NCBI RefSeq assembly: GCF_010692395.1
Contig: NZ_JAAHHS010000025.1
Coordinates: forward strand, 1 to 64,000
Origin: Moorena sp. SIO3H5
Lineage (GTDB): Bacteria; Cyanobacteriota; Cyanobacteriia; Cyanobacteriales; Coleofasciculaceae
DNA: 64,000 nt
Reading direction: 5' to 3'
This document shows positions 2,965 through 34,307 of this stretch, piece by piece. The position numbers and the translations under genes were made by a program. Under the pieces are notes generated by a model that was not told the DNA's origin, searched no databases, and saw only the letters and a list, made by a program, of their open reading frames with translations. Numbering within the stretch: the first letter of the stretch is position 1; every line of letters begins with the position of its first letter.

Positions 2965-2969
2965 ATGTT

Positions 2970-3104
2970 TATATAGCGGTTTTAAATTTGGTGAGGTACA
3001 GATTTTCTGCTTTTAGGGAACAGGGAACACAGAAGAGGCAAAAGGCAAAAGGCAAAAGGCAAGAGAAAAAAATTGTGTACCTCATTAGGCTATAAAGCGC
3101 TATC
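2970..3104. mobile_element. MITE-like element, imperfect terminal inverted repeats
   Basis: The left end (ATAGCGGTTTTAAATTTGG, then TGAGGTACA) and the reverse complement of the right end agree at about 20 of 28 positions. The interior holds a heptamer array (aaaaggc, about 3038-3063). The same ends bound 32056-32227, and one end occurs at 13686-13714. There is no coding capacity. The element separates the P450 from the aminotransferase-like gene. Confidence 0.55.
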
Positions 3105-3136: not shown

Positions 3137-4474
3137 ATGAAATCACGTTCAACAGAAGAGTATGAATTATTTAGAAAACTTAAACGCTATCAAGGTCAGC
3201 TTGATCTGGGTCATTCAGATGCCCCTGAATATAAGAAGAAAGATTTAATGGTAGAAATGGAGAATTTATATGCATCTTACCCTGCCCAGTATTTAGTCGA
3301 TTCTCATAAGGTAACTGTCCCAGAAAGTCTTGCTAATCTAGGTGCAAAAAAGATTTTTGGGCTCATTCCATCGTTTCCTAACGTTGATCCGAAATCCGTA
3401 GTTATTTTCCCTAAGACTTCAACAATTCTTGTTAAAATGTCGATTCTAGCCTCCAAAGATAGATTATTACGGATGGGAGGAAATGTTAAACCTATTACAG
3501 TCATTTATCCAGAAGGTAACTTTCGCTACAACCATAATGTAGATATATTTTGTGGCACTACTCGGCATTTAGTAGAAGTTTGTCCCGCGAGTTTTAAGAT
3601 TAAGCCAGACAAATTAGAAGAAGTCATTTGTACTGCAAAAAAGAATGGATATCTAATTGCTGCTTTTATACTGGAAACCCCTAATAATCCCTGGTGCCAA
3701 ATTTATAGTCCAGATGAGTTAAAAGAATTAGCAGAGGTCGCCCATAAACATAATATCCTGATCATTAATGATATGTATTTTTCAGGAACTGAAGCAATAG
3801 AAAATGACCAAGTTTCAGTGGCTAGTGTCAGTAGTCGCTCAGATTTAGTTATCACAACCTGTGGAATGCGAAGACAATTTGGAATTGACGGTATTGGCAA
3901 AGTAGGTTTTTTGACGAGTCAGAATGAGGCGCTTGTGAAGGAAATTAAGCGCTTTGTTGTTGCAGCACATATTCGTTACACCAATGCAGAGGTAATTACA
4001 GCTTCTTGGGCTCTAAAGAAAAGAGACTTGAATCATCGTGAAGAATTGAGAAAAGAGTTAGAGAGATTGAGGGCTAATGCCGAAGCTTTTCTGATGAATT
4101 CTGATTTATTCGCTATGGGAATGAAGATTATCAAGAGCAGCTGTGCAGGGCCTTTTATCAATATTGGGTTTAACTCAGAAATAGAATCTATGATGAAGAG
4201 TTTAGGGATAGCAGATAGTTATAATTTGGGTGAATATTTTTCTCAAATTGGAAAGGTTACACTTTTACCTTTAAGCTCAATGTTTACCAATAAAATTGGC
4301 TTTCGGGTAAACGTGACAAATATTTCGGAGTATAAAGCAGGATTAGCCTGTATGCAGGCTACCATTGAAAAGATTAAGAAAGGAGTTTCTTATCTTTCTT
4401 TAGAGACAGAAATAAATAAAGAATATGAGATTTTGAGACAAGGTTATCGTCCTTGGGAAGGTATCCAGGTCTGA
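3137..4474 (+). CDS. Class I/II aminotransferase-fold protein lacking the PLP lysine
   Basis: Fold-type I PLP-enzyme homologue, 445 residues. Conserved parts: TPNNPW (181-186, equivalent to the NPTG motif), IINDMYF with Asp212 (pairs with the PLP pyridine nitrogen) and GFRVNVT near the C-terminus (substrate-carboxylate arginine). Where the family has S-x-S-K-x-F-G, this protein reads GMRRQFG (243-249), so Arg246 occupies the Schiff-base lysine position. That predicts loss of ordinary transamination, or a different reaction or binding role. The reading frame is clean with no sign of decay. It follows the P450 on the same strand. The fold is confident; the activity is unknown. Confidence 0.8.
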   Translation: MKSRSTEEYELFRKLKRYQGQLDLGHSDAPEYKKKDLMVEMENLYASYPAQYLVDSHKVTVPESLANLGAKKIFGLIPSFPNVDPKSVVIFPKTSTILVKMSILASKDRLLRMGGNVKPITVIYPEGNFRYNHNVDIFCGTTRHLVEVCPASFKIKPDKLEEVICTAKKNGYLIAAFILETPNNPWCQIYSPDELKELAEVAHKHNILIINDMYFSGTEAIENDQVSVASVSSRSDLVITTCGMRRQFGIDGIGKVGFLTSQNEALVKEIKRFVVAAHIRYTNAEVITASWALKKRDLNHREELRKELERLRANAEAFLMNSDLFAMGMKIIKSSCAGPFINIGFNSEIESMMKSLGIADSYNLGEYFSQIGKVTLLPLSSMFTNKIGFRVNVTNISEYKAGLACMQATIEKIKKGVSYLSLETEINKEYEILRQGYRPWEGIQV

Positions 4475-4858: not shown

Positions 4859-5386
4859 ATGCGACCTGATTTGCAGGACTTGGTGATTTCAGAGGACTAT
4901 CTAACCAATTTAGTTGGGGAGAAGCCAGAGCGAGTCAGAGGTTTTTTCCTAGAGAAACCAAAAGAACCAGGAGATTTCCTGATCAAATTGGGTAGAGGGT
5001 CCTTTCTATGGCTGAAATATAAGGCAGTTAGACGGCTAGTGAAAGAAGTGGATCGATACAATACCGTGATTAGAGCTGTACACATTAATGATCAACTGGA
5101 AGAAGCTGGTAATCCAGGTGTTGGTCTGAGTAATCGGGAGCGAGTGCTCGAAGCCCTTGGGGTGATGAAAACGGATTTAGTGCGTGCTTTGAAGACAGAA
5201 CGAATTCTCAGGGAGAATAAGCAGTTTATTACTAAGAATCCTCAGCTATTTACTACTAATTTAACTACCTTGACCGCCCTGCACTTGAGTGATCAGGCCA
5301 GTGAGTATGGACGAGTGCTAGACCAAGCCTTGCAGGTAGCAGTGGGGGTACAAGAGGAAATGAGAAAATTGCAGAATCAGCGTTAG
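4859..5386 (+). CDS. Conserved-looking hypothetical protein, 175 aa
   Basis: I do not recognise a family. The protein is soluble, mixed-charge and predicted mainly helical, with no signal peptide, membrane segment or obvious catalytic motif. The N-terminus (DLVISEDYLTNLVGEKPERVRGFFLEKP) suggests a short globular or interaction segment; the rest is amphipathic helix ending in EEMRKLQNQR. The frame is clean for 528 bases with normal codon use, which supports a real gene. It lies between repeat-rich spacers, so operon context gives no clue to function. Confidence 0.6.
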   Translation: MRPDLQDLVISEDYLTNLVGEKPERVRGFFLEKPKEPGDFLIKLGRGSFLWLKYKAVRRLVKEVDRYNTVIRAVHINDQLEEAGNPGVGLSNRERVLEALGVMKTDLVRALKTERILRENKQFITKNPQLFTTNLTTLTALHLSDQASEYGRVLDQALQVAVGVQEEMRKLQNQR

Positions 5387-8311: not shown

Positions 8312-8740
8312 CTATTCTGCTTCCAGGAATCCCTTAACTGTCTCAACAGGAATAGAGACCACGGGATGATTAAATAATGCTTTTAATCCCTCAATTCCTC
8401 CTGCTTTTAAAGCACATGTTAGTCGCTGCTTAAGAGTAGGATTATCATTAATTTCTTCCATCACAATTGTAACAGCAACAGATTCTTTAGCAGTTCTGGG
8501 ATTTTCAGCAAGCTCGTTTAGTAATTGCTTAATTTCAGCTTTAGTATCAGCCATATCATCTGCTCTGATATCAATTGTTCCAGTTTTTAACTTAGCATCA
8601 TTGACCTCCTCTGTTATATCCATAGCTGTCTGATTTTCTTTATAAACTGAATCCTTAGTAGTGCTAATATCTCCAGTAGTAATTTGAGATCTGTTAACCT
8701 TACCACTAACATTCATTGACGTATTATTTTTCTTAGTCAT
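8312..8740 (-). CDS. Small adaptor-like protein with NISG/RHIM-like motifs and C-terminal helical domain
   Basis: 142 residues from the preferred ATG at 8740 (AGGAG eight bases upstream; the track's 8761 start adds seven residues). In track numbering, two tandem motifs occupy the N-terminus: SMNVSGKVNRSQITTGDI (15-32) and AMDITEEVNDAKLKTGTI (46-63). The C-terminal half (about 72-149) is helical with NPTLKQRLTCALKAGG and HPVVSIPVETVKGFLEAE, a domain I associate with cyanobacterial pentapeptide-repeat and conflict-system proteins. The first motif recurs in the pentapeptide protein upstream, so the two probably interact. It resembles bacterial amyloid (BASS/RHIM-like) signalling motifs. No enzymatic domain is seen. 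Confidence 0.75.
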   Translation of the reverse strand: MTKKNNTSMNVSGKVNRSQITTGDISTTKDSVYKENQTAMDITEEVNDAKLKTGTIDIRADDMADTKAEIKQLLNELAENPRTAKESVAVTIVMEEINDNPTLKQRLTCALKAGGIEGLKALFNHPVVSIPVETVKGFLEAE

Positions 8741-8782
8741 TTTTTTAACTCCTGTAATCAAAACTTAACAGACAGTGAATCT

Positions 8783-9108: not shown

Positions 9109-11028
9109 CTAAACTTCGGTATTATTTTCATCTGACGACTCATCAGGCGATAAATTATCAGTAGAGGCTTGATCAATCTCTTCATTGTTATCTTCATCTT
9201 GTTCAGATTCTTCCCTTGAATTATCTTCGATATTACCTGTAACAATTGAACTGTCATTCACTTCACCTGAAATATTCATAGAGGAATTCTTTTCCACCTT
9301 CTTACCACTAGATTCTGCCGTTGCATAGGTATTTACGATAAATTGAGCACCTTCCTTAGAAAGATTAGATATGACAGCAACTGGAGAAGTATTACCAGAA
9401 ATTATTTTTAAAAAAGATTGTCTATCAATCTGTATTTCTCCATCAATATTTGGACTCCACTCAATGCAATCAAAGGTGCAACTGCTATCCAAAAGTACTT
9501 CCTTCTGACTCTGGCTATTATCTCCATTTTTATCCTCCTTTGTAGTTTTCAGATTGATTCCACCCCGTTTAGTTTGGAAAAAGTTAGCACTATTAAGATG
9601 ACACTTATCTAGAGTTAGCCGAGTTAAATCAGCATATCTAAAGTCTGCGCCTGTTAAGTCGCTGCTTATAAACTGACTACCCCTCAAATTACCCGAGTGA
9701 AAACTAGCTCGAATTAACTGACAATCATTGAACGTAACACCTATCATTTTGGCTTGAGCAAAAATTACTTCTGTAAGATTACATTTTTGGGTAAAACTAC
9801 TATTGGAAAGGGAAACTTCTATTAGAGAAGCTGCTTCAGACGTTGCCCTTTTAAAACTAGTGTTAATGAAATGACAATTGTAGAGATTTGCTCTATACAA
9901 GTCAGTAGCTTCAAAATTAGTGTTATTAATAAGGTTATTGCTTAAATCAACATGCTGCATCGAGGCATTGTCAAATTTGCAATCGCTAATTGTTGGTTTT
10001 TGTTCTTCATGAGCACCATTTAACATTTTTTTATTGCTATTTTTTTTATTACTAATACAACAAATCACATCTAAATTATTTGAAGATTTGGTTCTAAATG
10101 ACTGAAAAATAGCTCTAGTAAATATAGTACTTATCAATGTGCAGTCATAAAACTTACAAGCTACTAATTTCGCATCTGAGAAGTTAGCTCTTGATAAGTT
10201 TGCCTTTTCAAATTTACTGCTAAACGATGCATTTACAAAACTAGAATCAGTTAAATCGCAATCATTATTGAACAATAGATATCCATCATTATCTATTCTA
10301 GATTTACTATAATTTGAAGGATAATGATGATCACGACAATTATCAAAAATTGAATTGATTAGCTTAACATTATCAAATTTAATTTGCAAAAATCTGGCGT
10401 TATCAAACCTTGAATTATTCAGAACAGAGTTAACAAATTTAACATTACTGAGATAAGAGTTACAAAAGTTTGCTCCTTCAATCCTAGCATCATAAAATTC
10501 AACATTAACTAATTGACAATCAGGACAGGCAAGTCCATAGGGTACATTTAAATTTAAAAACTTAGTATCTACTACTCTGATTCCAAATTGACTACACTTT
10601 TCAAGAAATACTTTTGAGTCTATATTACCTAAGTCTTCTTGATTTACCTCGACTTTAAATGTTATATTTACTAAATTTTTATTGATTTTTATTATATCTC
10701 CACCTTTTATTTTGCCTGTAGTAGAGATAAGAGAATTAGTAATTTGTTTGCCTGTAGTAGAACTAAGAGAAGTAGTAATTTCTGGATCGGTGTACTGAGT
10801 GAATTTGAATCCATTTATCCTTGACCAATAAATACTGATAAAAAACCAGTATTTTGAATCCAAAGGTAATGATGATTCTCCAGGAGACACTAGCTTTATT
10901 TCCGGTTGGTTTATGTTGCCATAAACTATTACACTGCCAAGGTGACCTTCATACAAGTATGACTTCTCAAATGGTTCTGGATCAGGAACCTTTTTTTGTT
11001 TAATTTTAATATATATACTGATTTTCAT
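9109..11028 (-). CDS. Pentapeptide-repeat protein with C-terminal NISG motif
   Basis: 639 residues. Residues about 170-470 contain many A(D/N)LxX-type pentapeptides (ANFCNSYLSN, ANLSRANFSDAKL, ADFRYADLTRLTL), predicting a right-handed quadrilateral beta-helix, interrupted by charged inserts. The N-terminal region (1-140) is beta-rich, unrecognised and includes a duplicated SLxSTTGK segment. The C-terminus has SSMNISGEVNDSSIVTGNI (582-600), matching the motif in the 142-residue protein downstream, then a very acidic low-complexity tail. Its start is 5 bases from the stop of the preceding 4-TM gene, so they are co-transcribed. A scaffold or signalling role is inferred; no catalytic site is visible. 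Confidence 0.85.
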   Translation of the reverse strand: MKISIYIKIKQKKVPDPEPFEKSYLYEGHLGSVIVYGNINQPEIKLVSPGESSLPLDSKYWFFISIYWSRINGFKFTQYTDPEITTSLSSTTGKQITNSLISTTGKIKGGDIIKINKNLVNITFKVEVNQEDLGNIDSKVFLEKCSQFGIRVVDTKFLNLNVPYGLACPDCQLVNVEFYDARIEGANFCNSYLSNVKFVNSVLNNSRFDNARFLQIKFDNVKLINSIFDNCRDHHYPSNYSKSRIDNDGYLLFNNDCDLTDSSFVNASFSSKFEKANLSRANFSDAKLVACKFYDCTLISTIFTRAIFQSFRTKSSNNLDVICCISNKKNSNKKMLNGAHEEQKPTISDCKFDNASMQHVDLSNNLINNTNFEATDLYRANLYNCHFINTSFKRATSEAASLIEVSLSNSSFTQKCNLTEVIFAQAKMIGVTFNDCQLIRASFHSGNLRGSQFISSDLTGADFRYADLTRLTLDKCHLNSANFFQTKRGGINLKTTKEDKNGDNSQSQKEVLLDSSCTFDCIEWSPNIDGEIQIDRQSFLKIISGNTSPVAVISNLSKEGAQFIVNTYATAESSGKKVEKNSSMNISGEVNDSSIVTGNIEDNSREESEQDEDNNEEIDQASTDNLSPDESSDENNTEV

Positions 11029-15703: not shown

Positions 15704-17743
15704 TTAATCATTATTTGGTAATTGTTTCATTAAGTCTTGACATTCTTGTGCTAAAGGAAGTTGTAATTCTGTAGCGATCGCTAAAGCTTGAGTGCAATAG
15801 TCATTAGCCAAATGATAATTACCTAATTTTTGATGTACTTTAGCTAAGTTATTGAGAACTTCGGCTTGGGCAGAAGGATCGCCAATATTTATAAAAATCT
15901 CTAGCCCTTTTTTGAAATTTTCCAAAGCTTCTGAATACTGCTCAAGTTTTATTAAACTTTCTCCCAAATTACACAACACTGCTCCTTCTCTCCAGTTATC
16001 TCCCATCTCCTGTGCAATAACTAGATATTGCTGATAGTAATCAACGGCTTGGATATAGTCTCCTAGTGAACTATAGGCACAACCTAGACCGCTTAGTGCT
16101 GTCATTTTTCCCTTTCGGTAGTCACTTTCTTCTGCAATAATCAAACTTTGCTTAAGGTATTCAGTTACTCGTCCGTAATTTCCCAGGGAATCGTAGACAA
16201 GTCCGAGACCGCTTAATGCAGAGCTTTCTCCCTGTCGGTCGCCAATTTCCCTAGCCATAAGCAAACTCTGCGAAAAATATTCAATGGCCTCGTCATAATT
16301 TCTTAAAGAATCGTAGGCAACTCCAAGAGAGCCATAAGCTACGAATTCTCCCTTTTTATAGCCTGTCTCTCTTGCAATAAGCAAATTATATTTATAGCAA
16401 TTAATAGCCTTTTGATAGTTTCCGATGGAATGGTAATATTGCCCTAGAGAATGGTAAAAACTATCCAAATTCTCCAAACCCTTCAAAGCCTTACCTTTAA
16501 ACTCCTGATGATTTATCTCTTGTGCAATTATCAAACTCTGCCTGAAATAATCAATAGCTTTGTCATAGTTTTTTAGGTAATAGTAGGTACTACCTAAATT
16601 GCATAGAGCGCCACATTCTCCCCATCTGCTACCAATTTTACGTGCTATAGCTAAATCCTGCTCATGGTAATTACTTGCTTGTTTGTATTCTCCTATAAAA
16701 TCATAGGCAAGACCCAATCCTCCCAAGGCTATTGCTTCTCCTTCCTGGTTTCCAATTTCTCGTGCAATAACTAAACTTTGTTGATAATAATTAATAGCTT
16801 GTTCAAAATATTTTTGGGAATAGTAAACATTGCCAAGGTTGCCTAATACTGAACCTTTTCCTCGCCTGTAACCAATTTCTTGTACTAACCTTAAAGCCTG
16901 GTTATAGTAATCAATGGCTTGCTCATAATCTTGCATCAAATAGTAAGAACTGCCTAAATTTACCAGTATTTCACTTTCTATTTCTCTGTTTTCAATCTTC
17001 TGTATCAACACCAAGGCTTGCTGATAGTAATCAATAGCTTGGTTATAATCTCCTCGAAAATAGCAGACACTACCCAAATCTCTTATAGTCTCAGCTTCTC
17101 CTTTTAGATCATTAATCTCTCGTGCGACTGTCAAACTCTGCTGTTGATAATCAAAGGCTTTGTCATAGATTCCTAATAAACTGTAGACATTTCCCAAATT
17201 TCCCAATGCCTCACCTTCTCTCTGTCTGTCGCCAATTTCCAGTGCTAACGCCAACGCTTGCTGATAGTAATCAATGGCTTGGTCATAATCTGCTCGAAAA
17301 TAGTAAGTATTTCCTATACAATTACAAAAAATAATATCCAAGTCAGGATTTAACTTGCCTAAAACTCTAATGTATAGGTTAAATTGTTGACCATAGTAAC
17401 CCCAGGTATCAAGTTGAGCGTGCAATTCTTGATTAGTAGAAGTATTAATAGAAGTAAAAATAATTTTGTTAGCTCGCTTCCAATCTTCTACTTCACACAG
17501 ATGAAAAAACGCCTCTAATAACCCTTTAACTTTATCTAAATTAGAAGCTTCAGGTAATGCTTGATATTTGGTTAGCCAGTTAATAACCGCTCTGTACTGA
17601 GTACGTTTCCATCGAGTTTTGATAGATTTGATAGTCGATGGATCAATTGATAAGTGCTCTAAAATTGATTTACCAGATGGTAAGAGTTCTATTTGAGAAG
17701 TTTCTTGTTTTATAGTGTTTGGATTAGCTTCGTTATTTGTCAT
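15704..17743 (-). CDS. TPR sensor-like protein 3 of split STAND operon
   Basis: 679 residues. An N-terminal helical module (about 43-131: RTQYRAVINWLTKYQ, LEAFFHLCEVEDW, YIRVLGKLNPDLD) is followed by about twelve 40-residue tetratricopeptide repeats of the type LGNVYYSxxxYExAINYYQQSL. The module is the one that normally follows the winged helix inside single-chain cyanobacterial NB-ARC-TPR proteins, but here it opens a separate protein with no ATPase. The C-terminal tail (KVHQKLGNYHLANDYCTQALAIATEL) is nearly identical to that of the next gene upstream, indicating recent duplication. Its start overlaps the upstream stop by 11 bases (ATGACAAATAA). Role: inferred ligand or partner recognition. 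Confidence 0.85.
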   Translation of the reverse strand: MTNNEANPNTIKQETSQIELLPSGKSILEHLSIDPSTIKSIKTRWKRTQYRAVINWLTKYQALPEASNLDKVKGLLEAFFHLCEVEDWKRANKIIFTSINTSTNQELHAQLDTWGYYGQQFNLYIRVLGKLNPDLDIIFCNCIGNTYYFRADYDQAIDYYQQALALALEIGDRQREGEALGNLGNVYSLLGIYDKAFDYQQQSLTVAREINDLKGEAETIRDLGSVCYFRGDYNQAIDYYQQALVLIQKIENREIESEILVNLGSSYYLMQDYEQAIDYYNQALRLVQEIGYRRGKGSVLGNLGNVYYSQKYFEQAINYYQQSLVIAREIGNQEGEAIALGGLGLAYDFIGEYKQASNYHEQDLAIARKIGSRWGECGALCNLGSTYYYLKNYDKAIDYFRQSLIIAQEINHQEFKGKALKGLENLDSFYHSLGQYYHSIGNYQKAINCYKYNLLIARETGYKKGEFVAYGSLGVAYDSLRNYDEAIEYFSQSLLMAREIGDRQGESSALSGLGLVYDSLGNYGRVTEYLKQSLIIAEESDYRKGKMTALSGLGCAYSSLGDYIQAVDYYQQYLVIAQEMGDNWREGAVLCNLGESLIKLEQYSEALENFKKGLEIFINIGDPSAQAEVLNNLAKVHQKLGNYHLANDYCTQALAIATELQLPLAQECQDLMKQLPNND

Positions 17744-19865
17744 TACTCTTTATTTTTTTGATTAATTCTTGACATTCTTGGACTAAAGGAAGTTCTAATT
17801 CTGTGGCGATCGCTAAAGCTTGATTACAATATTCATGAGCAAGATGATAATTACCTAATTTTTGGTGAACTTCTGCCAAATTATAAAGAGTGATAGCTTC
17901 ATGATATATATCATCAATTTTTCTAAAAATTTCTAGAGTTTTATACAAAAAATTTAAGCCTTTTAAATTCTGTTCCAGTTTGATGAGAGTTGAACCTAAA
18001 TTACCAAGTATTGAAGCTTCTTGCTGAAGATTACAAAATTTATTGACTATAGTTAAACTTTGCTGATAAGATTTAAGAGCTTGGCGATAATCTCCTAACT
18101 TATAATAAGCATTACCTATATTGTTCAGTACTGTATCAAGGTTGTTCGGTTCCCCAATTTCTTTACCAATAACTAAACTTTGCTTATAAGATTTAAGAGC
18201 TTGGTGATAATCTTCTAGCTTATAGTAAGCATTCCCAATATTGCTCAACGACTTATATTCCCCCTGTTGATCGCTAATTTCTTTAGTAAGAAACAAACGC
18301 TGTTTATGGTATTCAATTGCCTGTTGATAGTTTTCTTGGGCATAGTATGCAGAGCCTAGATTAAACAGTGCATCCGATTCTCCTCTTCGATCGCCTATGG
18401 TTTGTGTAATAGCTAAATCTTTCTCAAAGTATGAAATGGCTTGGGTATAGTTTCCCAAAGAATAATAAGTAAGACCAAGACTAACCAAGGCGGCTCCTTC
18501 TCCAGCAAGATCGCCAATAGCTTTTGCACTTGCTAACCACTGCTGGAGATAATCAATGGCTTGGTCATTCTTTCCTAGAGAACAGTAAGCATTACCTAGA
18601 CCTCCTAGAGCTTTTCCTACCAACTGCTGATTACCAATAGTCTGGGCAATAGCCAACTCCTGCTCATAATAATCAATGGCTCGATGATTTTCTCTTAGAT
18701 GAAGATAAACATTACCCAGATTACCTAGTGTTGTAGCTTCTCCAGCAGGATCTCCAATTTTCCGCGCAATGTTTAGACTCTGTTGTTGATATTTAATCCC
18801 TTGATTACTCTCCCCTAGAGCAAAGTAGGCAATGCCTAAACCACTAAGTGCTGCTGCTTCTCCTTGGCGATCGCTAATTTCCCGTGCAATAGTCAAATTT
18901 TGCTCGAAGTATGAAATGGCTTTAGAATAGTCTCCCAATGAATGATAAACATTTCCCAAATTACATAAAGCCGTTTCTTCCCCGGCACGTTCATCAAGTT
19001 TCTGTGTAATTGTCAAACACTGCTCGAAATACAAAATCGCACGATGGTAATTTCCTAGTGAATAGTAGGCTATACCTAAACCATTCAGTGCTTCTGTTGC
19101 TTCTTCTCTATCTCCTATTTCTTGTATAATGGATAAACACTGCTTAAAATATGTAATAGCACGAGTGTAATTTCCCAGTGAATTATAGATATTACCTAAA
19201 CCAACTAACGCACCGTATTTACTAACCAATTCTTCAGTTTTTTGTGTAATACACAAAGATTGCTCAAAATATGAAATAGCACGGGAATAGTCTCCTAGCG
19301 AAATGTGACTATTACCCAAATTAATCAAAGCATTTGCTTCCCATTGCCAGTAGTCAACTTCTCGTACATTGGTCAAAACTTGCTCATGGCAATGAATCGC
19401 TTCGTGATAGTTGCAAAGTTCATTGTAGACATTGCCTAAACCATCAAAACAAAAAGTATCTAAACTAGAATTTAAGTTGCCAAGAAGTTTGCTATACAAA
19501 TTAACCAGTTCTCGATAGTAACTCCAATGGTACAGTTGGTTATATAACTCCTTATGAGGAGACGTATTAAGGCTAATAAAAAGAATGTTACTTGCTCTTT
19601 GATAATCTTCTAATTCACACAAATGGTAAAACGTTTCTAATAATCCTTTGACTTTCTCTAAATTAGAAGCATCTCCATTAGGCTGATATTTCGTCAGCCA
19701 ATTTATAATTGCTCGATACTGACTTCTTTTACTACGCGGTTTGATTAATTTTACCTTAGCTGAATCAATATCAATGTTTTTCAAAATTGACTCACCATAA
19801 GGTACAAGTTTGACCTGGTCTGAAGCATTTTTTTCTTTATTATCTACCTCTAGTTGATTATTCAT
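17733..19865 (-). CDS. TPR sensor-like protein 2 of split STAND operon
   Basis: 710 residues from the preferred ATG at 19865, which overlaps the upstream TGA as ATGA; the track start (19892) adds nine residues inside the previous gene. It has the same N-terminal module (RSQYRAIINWLTKYQ, LETFYHLCELEDY, LYSKLLGNLNSSLD) and then about thirteen TPRs. Repeats are well conserved in helix positions but vary at surface positions, as expected for a binding scaffold. There is no enzymatic or membrane segment. Translational coupling suggests it is made in fixed proportion with the PNP-STAND protein. The ligand is unknown. Confidence 0.87.
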   Translation of the reverse strand: MNNQLEVDNKEKNASDQVKLVPYGESILKNIDIDSAKVKLIKPRSKRSQYRAIINWLTKYQPNGDASNLEKVKGLLETFYHLCELEDYQRASNILFISLNTSPHKELYNQLYHWSYYRELVNLYSKLLGNLNSSLDTFCFDGLGNVYNELCNYHEAIHCHEQVLTNVREVDYWQWEANALINLGNSHISLGDYSRAISYFEQSLCITQKTEELVSKYGALVGLGNIYNSLGNYTRAITYFKQCLSIIQEIGDREEATEALNGLGIAYYSLGNYHRAILYFEQCLTITQKLDERAGEETALCNLGNVYHSLGDYSKAISYFEQNLTIAREISDRQGEAAALSGLGIAYFALGESNQGIKYQQQSLNIARKIGDPAGEATTLGNLGNVYLHLRENHRAIDYYEQELAIAQTIGNQQLVGKALGGLGNAYCSLGKNDQAIDYLQQWLASAKAIGDLAGEGAALVSLGLTYYSLGNYTQAISYFEKDLAITQTIGDRRGESDALFNLGSAYYAQENYQQAIEYHKQRLFLTKEISDQQGEYKSLSNIGNAYYKLEDYHQALKSYKQSLVIGKEIGEPNNLDTVLNNIGNAYYKLGDYRQALKSYQQSLTIVNKFCNLQQEASILGNLGSTLIKLEQNLKGLNFLYKTLEIFRKIDDIYHEAITLYNLAEVHQKLGNYHLAHEYCNQALAIATELELPLVQECQELIKKIKSNDK

Positions 19866-21550
19866 TTTATTAATTTTAGTAATTCTAAACATTTTTCAGG
19901 ACAAGGAATATTTAGCCATTGAGATAATCTTAAAACTTTTGAAAATAATGATTTTGCTTTTTCAAAGTAGCCATAGTCATAAAAAAATTGAGCTAAATAA
20001 TAAAAACAAATAGCTTCATTATACCTATCATTAATTTCTTGACAAATTTTTAGGGCTGATTCTAGAGTTTGACAGGCTTTTGAATGTTCCAAAAAGTAAG
20101 TTTGAGCTTTTCCCAAGTTACGAAGAGAAGTTGCTTCACTTTGACGGTAGCCAATCTCACGAGCAATAGTTAACTGTTGTTGTGAATATTCAACTGTATG
20201 CTCATAATCATTTTGTTGAAGATAGAAAATTGCTAAACCTTCTAATGCCATTGCTTGTCCAATTTTATTATCATTTGACTGTGCAATATGTAAACTTTTT
20301 TCAAGATAAAAAAGTGCTTTTTTATTATCTTCAATAGCACTATAAGTAACACCTAAATCACTCATAACCAAGCCTTCACCTATTCGATCTCCAATTTTTT
20401 TGGCAATGCTTAAACTCTCAAGATGAGCTTGAAGTGCATTAGAGTCATTACCTAGAAAGTGATAAGTTTTTCCTAAATTACTTAATGCATTTCTTTCTGA
20501 TTGTAGATCTCCTATTTGTTTAGTAATATTTTGGGAATTTTTAAAGTAGTGAATAGCTTGATTAAAATCGCCTATAGCATTAGATATTTTACCAATGCCT
20601 GTTAAAGAAGTTGCTTCCCATCGAGCATCTAATTTTCCCAAAAGCCTCTGATATAAACCAATCGTTTCTTCATAAAAACCCCAAGTTTGTAATTGTTCAT
20701 GTAACTCTTCATTTGTGGGTGTATTTATACGAATTAGCATTATTGCCTTAGCTTCTAACCATGCTTCTACCTCGCATAAATGAAAAAAAGCTTCTAGCAA
20801 CCCTTTCAATTTAGCAAGATCGGAAGTCTCTTGATTAGCTTGATATTTTGTCACCCAATTAATAACTGCTCGATACTGACTTTTTTGTGGAATATGTTTA
20901 ATTAACTTTACTTTCTTTGAATCAATAAGAGCAGCTAAAACTAAATCGCCTGGAAAATCATCTAAATTAATACCTAAACTACATAAGGCTTTTCCTTCTT
21001 CTTTTTTATCTTTAATGTCCTGTGCAAGTTGTCTCCATTGCTGACGATAATTAATTGCTTTGTCGTAATTTCCTAAAGCATCATAAGCATTACCAAGACC
21101 TTCTAAAAACCGGCAATTCCATTTATCATCTATCTTTCCTAGCAAACTACTATAAATACTAATTTGTTGTTTATAAAGTCCCCAAACTCCCAGTTGGTAA
21201 TGAAATTTATAATTACTAAAATTCTGATTAGCATTAATATCAATAGATAAAATTTTCTTAACTTTATCCCAATCTTCAACTTGACATATATGATATAAAG
21301 CTTCTATATATCCCGTTACTTTTTCTAAATTTGATGGATTATTACCTACTGGTTTATATTTCAACAGCCAGTTTTTGATTGCTTTGTAATGAGCTTTTTT
21401 CCAAGGATAAAGATTAGAATTATTTTGTTTCATTAAAATACGATCAATTCCAGCTATTAGCTGTTTTACATGAATTCTATTAATTGAAATATCTAATAGC
21501 TGAAAACCAGATTTATGAGATTTTTTTAAGTTTTCAATATTCTTGCTCAT
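19862..21550 (-). CDS. TPR sensor-like protein 1 with duplicated N-terminal module
   Basis: 562 residues. Unlike its two neighbours it contains the helical module twice: first at about 45-145 (YKAIKNWLLKYKPVGNNPSN, IEALYHICQVEDW, IYSSLLGKIDDKWN) and again at about 220-310 (SQYRAVINWVTKYQANQ, LEAFFHLCEVEAW, LYQRLLGKLDARW), with one or two TPRs between and about seven after. The second copy is more like the modules of the two following genes, which suggests gene fusion or unequal recombination within the cluster. The start codon overlaps the PNP-STAND stop as ATGA. Its C-terminal tail diverges from the other two. Confidence 0.87.
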   Translation of the reverse strand: MSKNIENLKKSHKSGFQLLDISINRIHVKQLIAGIDRILMKQNNSNLYPWKKAHYKAIKNWLLKYKPVGNNPSNLEKVTGYIEALYHICQVEDWDKVKKILSIDINANQNFSNYKFHYQLGVWGLYKQQISIYSSLLGKIDDKWNCRFLEGLGNAYDALGNYDKAINYRQQWRQLAQDIKDKKEEGKALCSLGINLDDFPGDLVLAALIDSKKVKLIKHIPQKSQYRAVINWVTKYQANQETSDLAKLKGLLEAFFHLCEVEAWLEAKAIMLIRINTPTNEELHEQLQTWGFYEETIGLYQRLLGKLDARWEATSLTGIGKISNAIGDFNQAIHYFKNSQNITKQIGDLQSERNALSNLGKTYHFLGNDSNALQAHLESLSIAKKIGDRIGEGLVMSDLGVTYSAIEDNKKALFYLEKSLHIAQSNDNKIGQAMALEGLAIFYLQQNDYEHTVEYSQQQLTIAREIGYRQSEATSLRNLGKAQTYFLEHSKACQTLESALKICQEINDRYNEAICFYYLAQFFYDYGYFEKAKSLFSKVLRLSQWLNIPCPEKCLELLKLIK

Positions 21551-23490
21551 AGTTTTCTTAAGTGTTCAAGTGAAACTGCCCTAATCAAATTATGTTGCCT
21601 TAATAAATATTCATTATTGTCATCAACACTTTCCTCAACTAAATAACGATCTCTCAACGCATCCAAAGCCCTTTGTTGAGCATCTTCATCAATATCCCAA
21701 TCTTCTAAATGACTTAACCAAAAATCTTCTGGTACTTCACAGCGATAAACAGAAGACTCACACAACAATAAATAAGCTTCACGAACTCCCTCTTTTAGCC
21801 GATTAAACGCCTTCTCAAGTCTAACTTTTACATTGCGGCGTAATTGGCGAGTGTATTTATGTAAATTAAACTGATCATCTGCAGATGCGGTAATTCCTTT
21901 AGTTTTTGCTTCTTCAATGGCTTTTTCAACTTCTTCTACTTCCTTTCCATACTTATTCCAATATCCTATAACATTGCCATAAAAAGGACGAGTAACAATT
22001 TCACCAGCTATTACCCGTAAAGCTAAAGGATGACCTTCATAAGCTCGTCCAATACGTTCTAAATAAGGTTTACCTTCTGCTTCTTCAGTAACATCTAATC
22101 CGGTCTTACCAAATAAGGCTAACTGTTCCGGTTCATCTAATCCGCTTAAAGCTTGACAATACCAAAAATTTTGAGAACGAGTCCCGATAATCGGAATTTG
22201 TGCTGGTAAATCCTGTGACGTTAAAATAAAACAACTTTCACAAGTATCAACATTTAACCAAGTTTGAAAGAACTTCACCCAGAACTCATCTATAAAATCA
22301 CTCCATCCTTCTTCTTCATTCCCCTGTAAAATTCTTTCTAAAGAATCAATTTGAATTAAATAACGATTCTCTTGTAAATGCCTTACCAAACGATACATTA
22401 AGCGTTGAGTGTCCTTACGGTCATCAGGAGTCACTACTTCACCACATTTTTCTAGTAATCTGGCAGCCACACTCCCAAAATCAGCAGTTTGTTCCTCATT
22501 ATCAAAATTTTCTTGGAGATAAGAATTCCAATCTTCAAACCAATCTTCTAGTTCAACGGCTAATCTTTCCCCTAAAGCGGTTTTACCAATTCCTGTAATC
22601 CCTACTAAAATCAACAAGCGACATGACCCTTTAAGTTTATTCGTTAAGTCATTGATTAGACTTTTACGACCTACCCAAGCCTCATCATAAGCAAAAAACT
22701 TAGGGGTTTTCGTCTTGTTTATAGGTTCTGTAGTAGTAAGTGTCTGAGCTGGTGAATTTAACTCAAGCTTGCCCAAAACCTCAAACGCAAAAGCACTAGC
22801 ATGACCAGCAGCTATTTCTTGATACCCCCCTTCATCTGCTTCACTCTTCCCATCAATTAAATCAGAAATACCCCGAATAATTAACGCTGAAACCTGTTGA
22901 TTAGCATGGGCAGCTTGTAAAATACCACGCCCTTCCATTTCCACAGCTAAAGCATCACCATAATTATGCTGAAGAAACTTAAACAAATCTGACTCCTTAT
23001 TCGCAACTACCTTTTCTCCCGCAGCAATAGGAGCAACAAATACCTTAGGGCTTGCTGAAGAAGAAACTCTAGCTAACCAGTCTGTTTTTTTAGCTTCAGC
23101 CCTTGCCCGTTGAATCATCTTATAAGTTGAAATACCTACATCCGGTCTAGGTCTAAAGGTCTCGGCTACCTTACCAGACTCATAACCATAAACCTTAGTA
23201 GCAGCTACCACATCCCCCAGTTTGACATCCTTAATGCCTCCAGCTACCCCCACAAACAGAATCACATCAGGATTAAAATAAGCGATCGCCCTTTCTGCTT
23301 CCACCGCTGCGGGGGAATTTCCTGCACCTGTCTCCACAATACCCACCTCCCACTCCTGACCATGACTAGAAAATTTCCCCCTCTCATAAATAGTCCCTTG
23401 GGGGTGCATCTCCTCCTTCAAGTCAGTGAGATGAGCACGTACTGCCATGTATTCACTCGGAATTGCTGTGAGGATAACCGCACAAGACAT
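21547..23490 (-). CDS. PNP-domain + NB-ARC STAND ATPase without fused sensor
   Basis: 647 residues. Residues 1-245 are a PNP_UDP/MTAN-like phosphorylase fold: GVAGGIKDVKLGDVV, VEMEGRGI (183-190, nucleoside-binding Glu pair) and IRGISDLID (205-213, catalytic-type Asp). This domain is known as an effector fused to STAND ATPases. Residues about 265-500 are the NB-ARC ATPase: P-loop GITGIGKT (297-304), Walker B IQIDSLE and GHPLALRV (the GLPL motif). A winged helix fills about 548-647. The protein stops at LRKL, exactly where fused family members continue into helical/TPR sensors; those follow as separate genes through an ATGA overlap. Inferred to be a nucleotide- or nucleoside-targeting immune or stress switch. 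Confidence 0.9.
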   Translation of the reverse strand: MSCAVILTAIPSEYMAVRAHLTDLKEEMHPQGTIYERGKFSSHGQEWEVGIVETGAGNSPAAVEAERAIAYFNPDVILFVGVAGGIKDVKLGDVVAATKVYGYESGKVAETFRPRPDVGISTYKMIQRARAEAKKTDWLARVSSSASPKVFVAPIAAGEKVVANKESDLFKFLQHNYGDALAVEMEGRGILQAAHANQQVSALIIRGISDLIDGKSEADEGGYQEIAAGHASAFAFEVLGKLELNSPAQTLTTTEPINKTKTPKFFAYDEAWVGRKSLINDLTNKLKGSCRLLILVGITGIGKTALGERLAVELEDWFEDWNSYLQENFDNEEQTADFGSVAARLLEKCGEVVTPDDRKDTQRLMYRLVRHLQENRYLIQIDSLERILQGNEEEGWSDFIDEFWVKFFQTWLNVDTCESCFILTSQDLPAQIPIIGTRSQNFWYCQALSGLDEPEQLALFGKTGLDVTEEAEGKPYLERIGRAYEGHPLALRVIAGEIVTRPFYGNVIGYWNKYGKEVEEVEKAIEEAKTKGITASADDQFNLHKYTRQLRRNVKVRLEKAFNRLKEGVREAYLLLCESSVYRCEVPEDFWLSHLEDWDIDEDAQQRALDALRDRYLVEESVDDNNEYLLRQHNLIRAVSLEHLRKL

Positions 23491-33137: not shown

Positions 33138-34307
33138 TTAATGATTAATAACTAATGGCTCAAGCACGCCTAATAAATTAGCTAACCCATCAACAACCTG
33201 CTCAATCTGCTCCTTGCTCAAGTTGGGATAAATTGGTAGAGATAAAATCTCATTGCACAGAGCTTCCGCATGGGGAAAGTCACCGGCTTGATATCCCAAG
33301 TACTTGTAAGCTGGCTGGAGATGGCAAGGAATTGGATAATGAATACCGGTTTGAATTCCCACTGAGGCCAGAGCATCCTGGATACTCTCTCGGTTAAAAG
33401 GACATTGTTGACCCACCCGAATCACATAAAGGTGGTAGACATGACCTGGCCCGCTGTGGTTTTCTATGGGCACAATCCCCTGATCTTCCAAAGCCTTGAG
33501 TAGATTGTCGTACTGCCCAGCTGCCCAGTACCGTGACTGGTTCCACTCAGTCAAATAAGGCAGTTTAACATTGAGAATAGCAGCTTGTAACGTATCTAAA
33601 CGGCTATTTTTGCCGATGTCGGTATGAAAATATTTGCGAGGTGCTCCGTAATTGCGAAGCGATCGCACTTTTTCTGCCACAGTAGCATCATTAGTGATTA
33701 CCATGCCACCGTTACCAAAGGCACCCAAGTTTTTACTGGGGTAGAAACTAAATGCTGCCGCCTTGCCCACAGAACCAGCATAATAATCCTCTCGCTTTGC
33801 TAAGTGAGCTTGTGCTGCATCTTCAAAAATTAGTAAGTTGTGGGCATCAGCAAATGCCATTAACTCACTCGGAGATACCATCTGACCGTAAAGGTGCACA
33901 GGGACAATTGCCTTGGTTTTGGCTGTAATTGCTTGTTTGGCACTATCGAGATCAATTAGAGCAGTACGAGGGTTGCAATCCACCAAAATTGGCGTAGCAC
34001 CAGCAGCTATGATGCCCATCACTGTAGCGATAAAGGTGTTAGCAGGACAAATCACTTCATCCCCAGCCCTAATGCCACAGGCTTGTAATCCAAGTGCGAT
34101 CGCATCGGTGCCAGACCCCACTCCGATACCGTATTCGACACCAGAAGCAGCCGCAAACGCCTCCTCAAAATTGATCAACGCTTTACCTAGAACAAAATCT
34201 CCCTGCTGCACTACAGCTTGAATTGCCTGGTTTAGCTCGGTTTGAATAGGTTCGTGTTGTTGAGCTAGTGAAACGAAGGGAACTTTGACCGGAACTTGGT
34301 AACTCAT
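33138..34307 (-). CDS. DegT/DnrJ/EryC1/StrS sugar aminotransferase
   Basis: 389-residue PLP enzyme that transaminates keto-sugars on nucleotide carriers to give amino sugars. Motifs: VGSGTDAI (63-70), FEDAAQAHLA (161-170, Asp for the pyridine nitrogen), SFYPSKNLGAFGNGG with the Schiff-base Lys192, and RNYG. It is the first gene of the - strand exopolysaccharide run, so it likely supplies an amino-sugar precursor for this polymer. The long 2-kb upstream spacer probably carries its promoter. The exact sugar cannot be read from sequence. Confidence 0.93.
   Translation of the reverse strand: MSYQVPVKVPFVSLAQQHEPIQTELNQAIQAVVQQGDFVLGKALINFEEAFAAASGVEYGIGVGSGTDAIALGLQACGIRAGDEVICPANTFIATVMGIIAAGATPILVDCNPRTALIDLDSAKQAITAKTKAIVPVHLYGQMVSPSELMAFADAHNLLIFEDAAQAHLAKREDYYAGSVGKAAAFSFYPSKNLGAFGNGGMVITNDATVAEKVRSLRNYGAPRKYFHTDIGKNSRLDTLQAAILNVKLPYLTEWNQSRYWAAGQYDNLLKALEDQGIVPIENHSGPGHVYHLYVIRVGQQCPFNRESIQDALASVGIQTGIHYPIPCHLQPAYKYLGYQAGDFPHAEALCNEILSLPIYPNLSKEQIEQVVDGLANLLGVLEPLVINH

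Follow-up and report, generated by a model that had tools for sequence, protein, structure and literature searches.

An aminotransferase-fold protein with arginine at the Schiff-base lysine position in Moorena sp. SIO3H5

The class I/II aminotransferases (Pfam accession number PF00155) include aspartate aminotransferase (AspAT), aromatic aminotransferase and ACC synthase. Fold-type-I PLP enzymes are defined by the PLP lysine, a residue responsible for the internal aldimine, for transaldimination and for proton shuttling. Natural exceptions are nevertheless described. In the sugar 3-dehydratases ColD, E1 and SpnQ, which use PMP, histidine replaces this lysine as acid/base (PMC8987622). The fold-type-I relative SPT1/LCB1 has lost the PLP lysine and pairs with the catalytic subunit of serine palmitoyltransferase (PMC6148460).

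Here, we describe a 445-residue protein encoded in a 64,000-nucleotide stretch of the cyanobacterium Moorena sp. SIO3H5 (this whole stretch is the window referred to below; Table 1) that carries arginine in place of the lysine. With the class I/II aminotransferases it shares the fold, the NP motif, the aspartate at the pyridine ring, the stacking aromatic residue and the C-terminal arginine, but according to the alignments it has Arg for Lys, Arg for the preceding Ser, Phe for the Tyr three residues after the ring aspartate (D+3) and Lys for the phosphate-binding Arg. The 3-dehydratases resemble it in their aminotransferase fold and replaced catalytic lysine; they differ in having His where this protein has Arg and in being relatives of sugar aminotransferases that act on nucleotide sugars. 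No sequence relation to ColD, E1 or SpnQ was found. Identity with a 3-dehydratase was rejected since the protein has Arg instead of His and matches PF00155, with no DegT_DnrJ_EryC1 match in Pfam. With SPT1/LCB1 it has in common a fold-type-I ancestry and the loss of the lysine, but the latter belongs to the α-oxoamine synthase family and is part of an obligate eukaryotic heterodimer, whereas beside the gene described here no partner gene is seen.

Table 1. Features of the locus, numbered from the first nucleotide of the window (aa, amino acids).
Feature	Position	Strand	Basis or remark
Cytochrome P450	1390..2964	+	Pfam p450, 4.6e-71; present in two congeners without the 445-aa gene
Dispersed repeat between P450 and 445-aa gene	2969..3103	+	Absent beside the G001 copy, where the spacer is short
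445-aa aminotransferase-fold protein without Schiff-base lysine	3137..4474	+	ORF, Pfam Aminotran_1_2, Foldseek of AF2 model
K93-T94-S95-T96, putative altered phosphate-binding loop, Gly to Lys	3413..3424	+	Loop alignment approximate
Phe129, equivalent of PLP-ring-stacking aromatic	3521..3523	+	VIYPEGNF aligned to VIVPDPGF
Asn184 of NP motif	3686..3688	+	Invariant alignment column
Asp212, equivalent of Asp touching PLP pyridine nitrogen	3770..3772	+	Invariant alignment column
Arg245 (codon CGA) for Ser preceding lysine	3869..3871	+	Ser nearly invariant in homologues
Arg246 (codon AGA) at PLP-binding lysine position	3872..3874	+	Alignments, orthologue, fragment
Lys255 at phosphate-binding Arg position	3899..3901	+	MAFFT and profile-profile alignments
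Arg390, equivalent of C-terminal substrate-carboxylate Arg	4304..4306	+	Alignments, motif spacing
175-aa gene closing the insertion on the far side	4859..5386	+	Directly after P450 in G003 and G004

The reading frame begins with ATG and runs through 445 codons with no internal stop, so that the preliminary description was right in calling it undamaged. The single Pfam family matched is Aminotran_1_2 (E 8.8e-15, residues 150–319), and a score of 55.2 bits against a curated cut-off of 19.7 places the protein within it. Many NCBIfam models of class I aminotransferases match too, all far under their own cut-offs. The top match among them is GntC (NF041364), the (S)-γ-hydroxy-L-arginine cyclodehydratase of guanitoxin biosynthesis, with 2.3e-15 over 192 residues and 56.4 bits against a cut-off of 415; this family is PLP-dependent by its NCBIfam name, whereas the present protein lacks the lysine and is not a member. 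A sequence search of the PDB returned ordinary aminotransferases alone (about 1e-6 to 1e-7), and PADLOC gave no match. Apart from one orthologue the nearest sequence relatives are distant (16–30% identity), with values of about 16–25% for the class I/II aminotransferases.

Structure prediction led to the same family. A first AF2 run with eight sequences was poor (pLDDT 43). The second used 30 sequences, the orthologue being left out of the folding alignment, and gave a mean pLDDT of 60 and a pTM of 0.61, which makes the model usable in the core of the large domain only: means of ten-residue blocks lie at about 65–94 across most of residues 80–270, and stretches of low confidence comprise residues 14–70, 278–299 and 379–400. 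Compared with the PDB by Foldseek, this model matched class I aminotransferases as well as ACC synthase at a best E of 8.8e-15, with TM values of 0.58/0.70 against Thermus thermophilus AspAT, so that the predicted fold is that of PF00155. The protein therefore belongs by fold (type I) to the class I/II aminotransferases, and it probably descends from a PLP enzyme.

The motif GMRRQFG aligns ungapped on GFSKTF, GFAKAF and GLSKGY of the relatives (consensus G-x-S/A-K-x-F/Y), which puts Arg246 on the lysine. Three kinds of alignment were used: HMMER against solved aminotransferases, MAFFT with homologues from neighbouring genomes and viral contigs, and hhalign. They agree without a gap, as the preliminary description had proposed from the sequence. 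In the MAFFT alignment the column holds Lys in all 29 homologues, and the profile-profile comparison (probability 97.7) pairs Arg246 with Lys as well. Among the PF00155 matches of the host genome itself the class I/II paralogues of full length, 12 in number, all keep the Schiff-base lysine. An error of sequencing or assembly was rejected because the same GMRRQFG occurs in an independent genome of the genus (G001) and in a broken copy in a further genome (G599); these are the sole intact orthologue and the one fragment found, and both keep the arginine, which answers the question, raised at the outset, whether it is conserved in relatives. By all alignments, then, the lysine on which a functional PLP-dependent aminotransferase relies is replaced by Arg246, and in its absence the protein is not expected to run the classical aminotransferase cycle. 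No natural Lys-to-Arg aminotransferase came up in literature searches.

The roles of the remaining positions of the cofactor site are well established for AspAT, and their counterparts here were assigned by alignment. The ring aspartate, the asparagine motif (P182-N183-N184-P185) and the C-terminal arginine, said in the preliminary description to be kept, were all recovered, with D212 and N184-P185 invariant among the aligned homologues. Arg390 was placed by an R-x-S/N pattern with Glu at +8, and MAFFT moves it by four positions. Less certain is Y48, which aligns with the region of the inter-subunit Tyr. Other positions have changed: the D+3 Tyr is replaced by F215, with Y214 at D+2, and the phosphate cup would be built from the K93-T94-S95-T96 loop (approximately aligned), R245 for Ser and K255 for Arg. 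The preliminary description had named K255 as the residue that, if it fell on the Schiff-base position, would speak against its assignment of Arg246. In the alignments GIGKVG instead falls on GW-RxG after one inserted residue, i.e. K255 lies on the PLP-phosphate Arg. With K93, R245, R246 and K255 the putative cofactor site is unusually basic, and together with R390 the pocket would contain five basic residues.

The only intact orthologue found, in G001, is 94% identical and shares the GMRRQFG motif. The gene is thus present in two of five genomes of the genus. A genome from another family of the same order (G599) contains a 209-bp piece with 98% DNA identity (L022/L039, G599:C996, 415-623) that encodes residues ~214–283 including GMRRQFG and is flanked by unrelated sequence; it is a transferred and broken copy of the gene. 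Between the two intact copies 26 nonsynonymous differences at 1031 sites stand against 21 synonymous ones at 298 sites (dN/dS 0.35, one-sided Fisher p = 5e-4). This ratio indicates purifying selection, and the gene is selectively maintained. Only two of the 26 amino-acid changes fall in the 115 positions of the active-site region (p = 0.035), and residues 1–66 are identical. No further member of the family was detected in genomes of 39 relatives, 386 of the phylum and 391 of the order, nor in 390 genomes of the class (searched as DNA) or 62 of the family of G599; these samples overlap. Scans with exact short peptides revealed no relatives in genome contigs of 84,980 species or in viral contigs, but they require an exact match of 7–8 residues and distant relatives can escape them. 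A second round of contig scans, in which the flanks of the input alignment were varied by hand so that patterns had to come from the motif region, likewise found none. Searches of plasmids and phages also found no relatives, and all searches beyond the host phylum (contigs, plasmids, phages) yielded nothing except one ordinary Listeria aminotransferase. The gene is rare and accessory.

Its position differs between congeners. In two genomes of the genus (G003, G004) the P450 gene is followed at ~250–270 bp by the 175-residue gene with no aminotransferase-like gene between them. In Moorena sp. SIO3H5 the corresponding interval measures 1.9 kb and contains the gene described here, and in G001 it extends over ~3.5 kb with the orthologue and two genes on the minus strand (G001:C4:331036-333115), which we named EF-hand and cupin-like by eye. 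The gap between P450 and the 175-residue gene thus seems to be a site where insertions vary, and the gene is an accessory insertion in it. Its GC content of 36.5% contrasts with 45–47% for the P450, a transketolase-like gene and the 175-residue gene; as further genes of the window are likewise AT-rich, GC alone would not show horizontal acquisition. Taken together, the low GC content, the empty site in congeners and the almost identical fragment in a different family suggest that the gene was acquired horizontally. The dispersed repeat upstream of it (TTTTAGGGAACAGGGAACA...AAAAGGCAAAAGGCAAAAGGCAAG type) is present dozens of times in every one of the five genomes of the genus.

The preliminary description had pointed to the neighbouring P450. 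The adjacency itself stands, but the functional link it implied is weak: since at least two species carry the P450 without this gene, adjacency is no evidence of a joint pathway, and an operon with the P450 is not supported for the same reason. In G001 the gene closely follows the P450 stop codon, so that co-transcription is possible there.

Several other features of the window may be recorded here. At 21547-23490 on the minus strand a PNP_UDP_1 phosphorylase domain is fused to an NB-ARC/STAND-like ATPase and followed by three overlapping ORFs with TPR repeats (19862-21550, 17733-19892 and 15704-17743, all minus strand). The whole region (15704-23490) looks like an NLR-like system whose TPR sensor is split into separate or frame-shifted ORFs. 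Two nearby minus-strand proteins (8312-8761 and 9109-11028) have the motif MN(I/V)SG(E/K)VN-S-I-TG-I in common, which perhaps serves both as a tag or adaptor; the larger shows a pentapeptide-like repeat by eye. A DegT/DnrJ/EryC1 sugar aminotransferase with intact lysine (SFYPSKNLG; 33138-34307, minus strand) lies in a stretch that also contains glycosyltransferase and O-antigen ligase genes.

The preliminary description had proposed a pseudoenzyme or a PLP-independent or altered reaction. The replaced lysine, the lack of a nearby substitute lysine in the alignments and the purifying selection all fit this proposal, but sequence cannot choose among its three options. We favour, with a probability of about 0.5, a horizontally acquired aminotransferase-fold protein that forms no internal aldimine and has been kept for ligand binding or catalysis independent of PLP. 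In a descendant of a PLP enzyme the Schiff-base lysine would have been lost by its change to Arg246, and because of this loss there would be no internal aldimine, no lysine-mediated transaldimination and no 1,3-proton transfer. Most likely PLP would then no longer be catalytic, and the protein would be a ligand binder or a PLP-free enzyme. A strongly anionic, carboxylate-bearing ligand would probably be recognized in its pocket via R390 and the basic cluster. PLP independence is favoured by the replacement of the lysine by R246, of the adjoining Ser by R245, of the D+3 Tyr by F215 and of the loop Gly by K93. Against it speak the contacts that remain, namely Asp212, Asn184, the ring-stacking aromatic residue, R390 and the basic phosphate contact, because with them more of a PLP site is kept than a bare scaffold should require. 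With no more than two intact copies, themselves 94% identical, conservation can hardly tell ligand binding from structure.

The contacts just listed equally speak for the foremost alternative, in which PMP or PLP is held non-covalently as in ColD, E1 and SpnQ, with Arg246 or a neighbour as acid/base, and PMP chemistry without lysine indeed exists in the aminotransferase fold (PMC8987622). We regard it as unlikely: Arg is poorly suited as a general base, the phosphate-loop Gly, the Ser beside the lysine and the D+3 Tyr have apparently all changed, and enzymes of the ColD type are DegT-family members with His, whereas this protein is closest to class I aminotransferases. A new type of enzyme with Arg-Arg for Ser-Lys, working either with non-covalent PLP/PMP and Arg as acid/base or by cofactor-free chemistry on a carboxylate substrate, is a tentative idea that we consider rather unlikely. 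It is also highly improbable that the protein works as a normal PLP enzyme with its aldimine on K255 or K93. Both lie in the cofactor region of the alignment, but K255 falls on the phosphate Arg and K93 on the phosphate loop, neither at the end of the strand that bears the lysine, and as substitute Schiff-base lysines they were rejected on the alignments.

A recently acquired gene that is functionless at present and heading for loss could explain why it occurs in two of five genomes of the genus and why G599 has only a broken piece. Such an outcome is improbable, and a pseudogene, or an arginine due to chance or decay, is disfavoured by the two intact full-length frames, the dN/dS of 0.35 and the identical N-terminal 66 residues. 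The protein might instead be a subunit without catalysis of its own that pairs with an aminotransferase bearing the lysine, as SPT1/LCB1 does with SPT2/LCB2. A lysine-less subunit is documented in the same superfamily (PMC6148460), and at least 12 full-length class I/II paralogues in the genome carry the lysine. These paralogues are distant. A single further match to the protein, and that a weak one, exists in the genome (30% identity across 90 residues), and with no partner gene adjacent we consider this role quite improbable.

What is new here is a Lys-to-Arg variant with an Arg-Arg pair in a known fold family. Natural losses of the PLP lysine are few and informative, with His in its place in ColD, E1 and SpnQ and no replacement in SPT1. 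If a maintained Lys-to-Arg member keeps the ring aspartate, the asparagine and the carboxylate-binding arginine, it would show of what else this site is capable.
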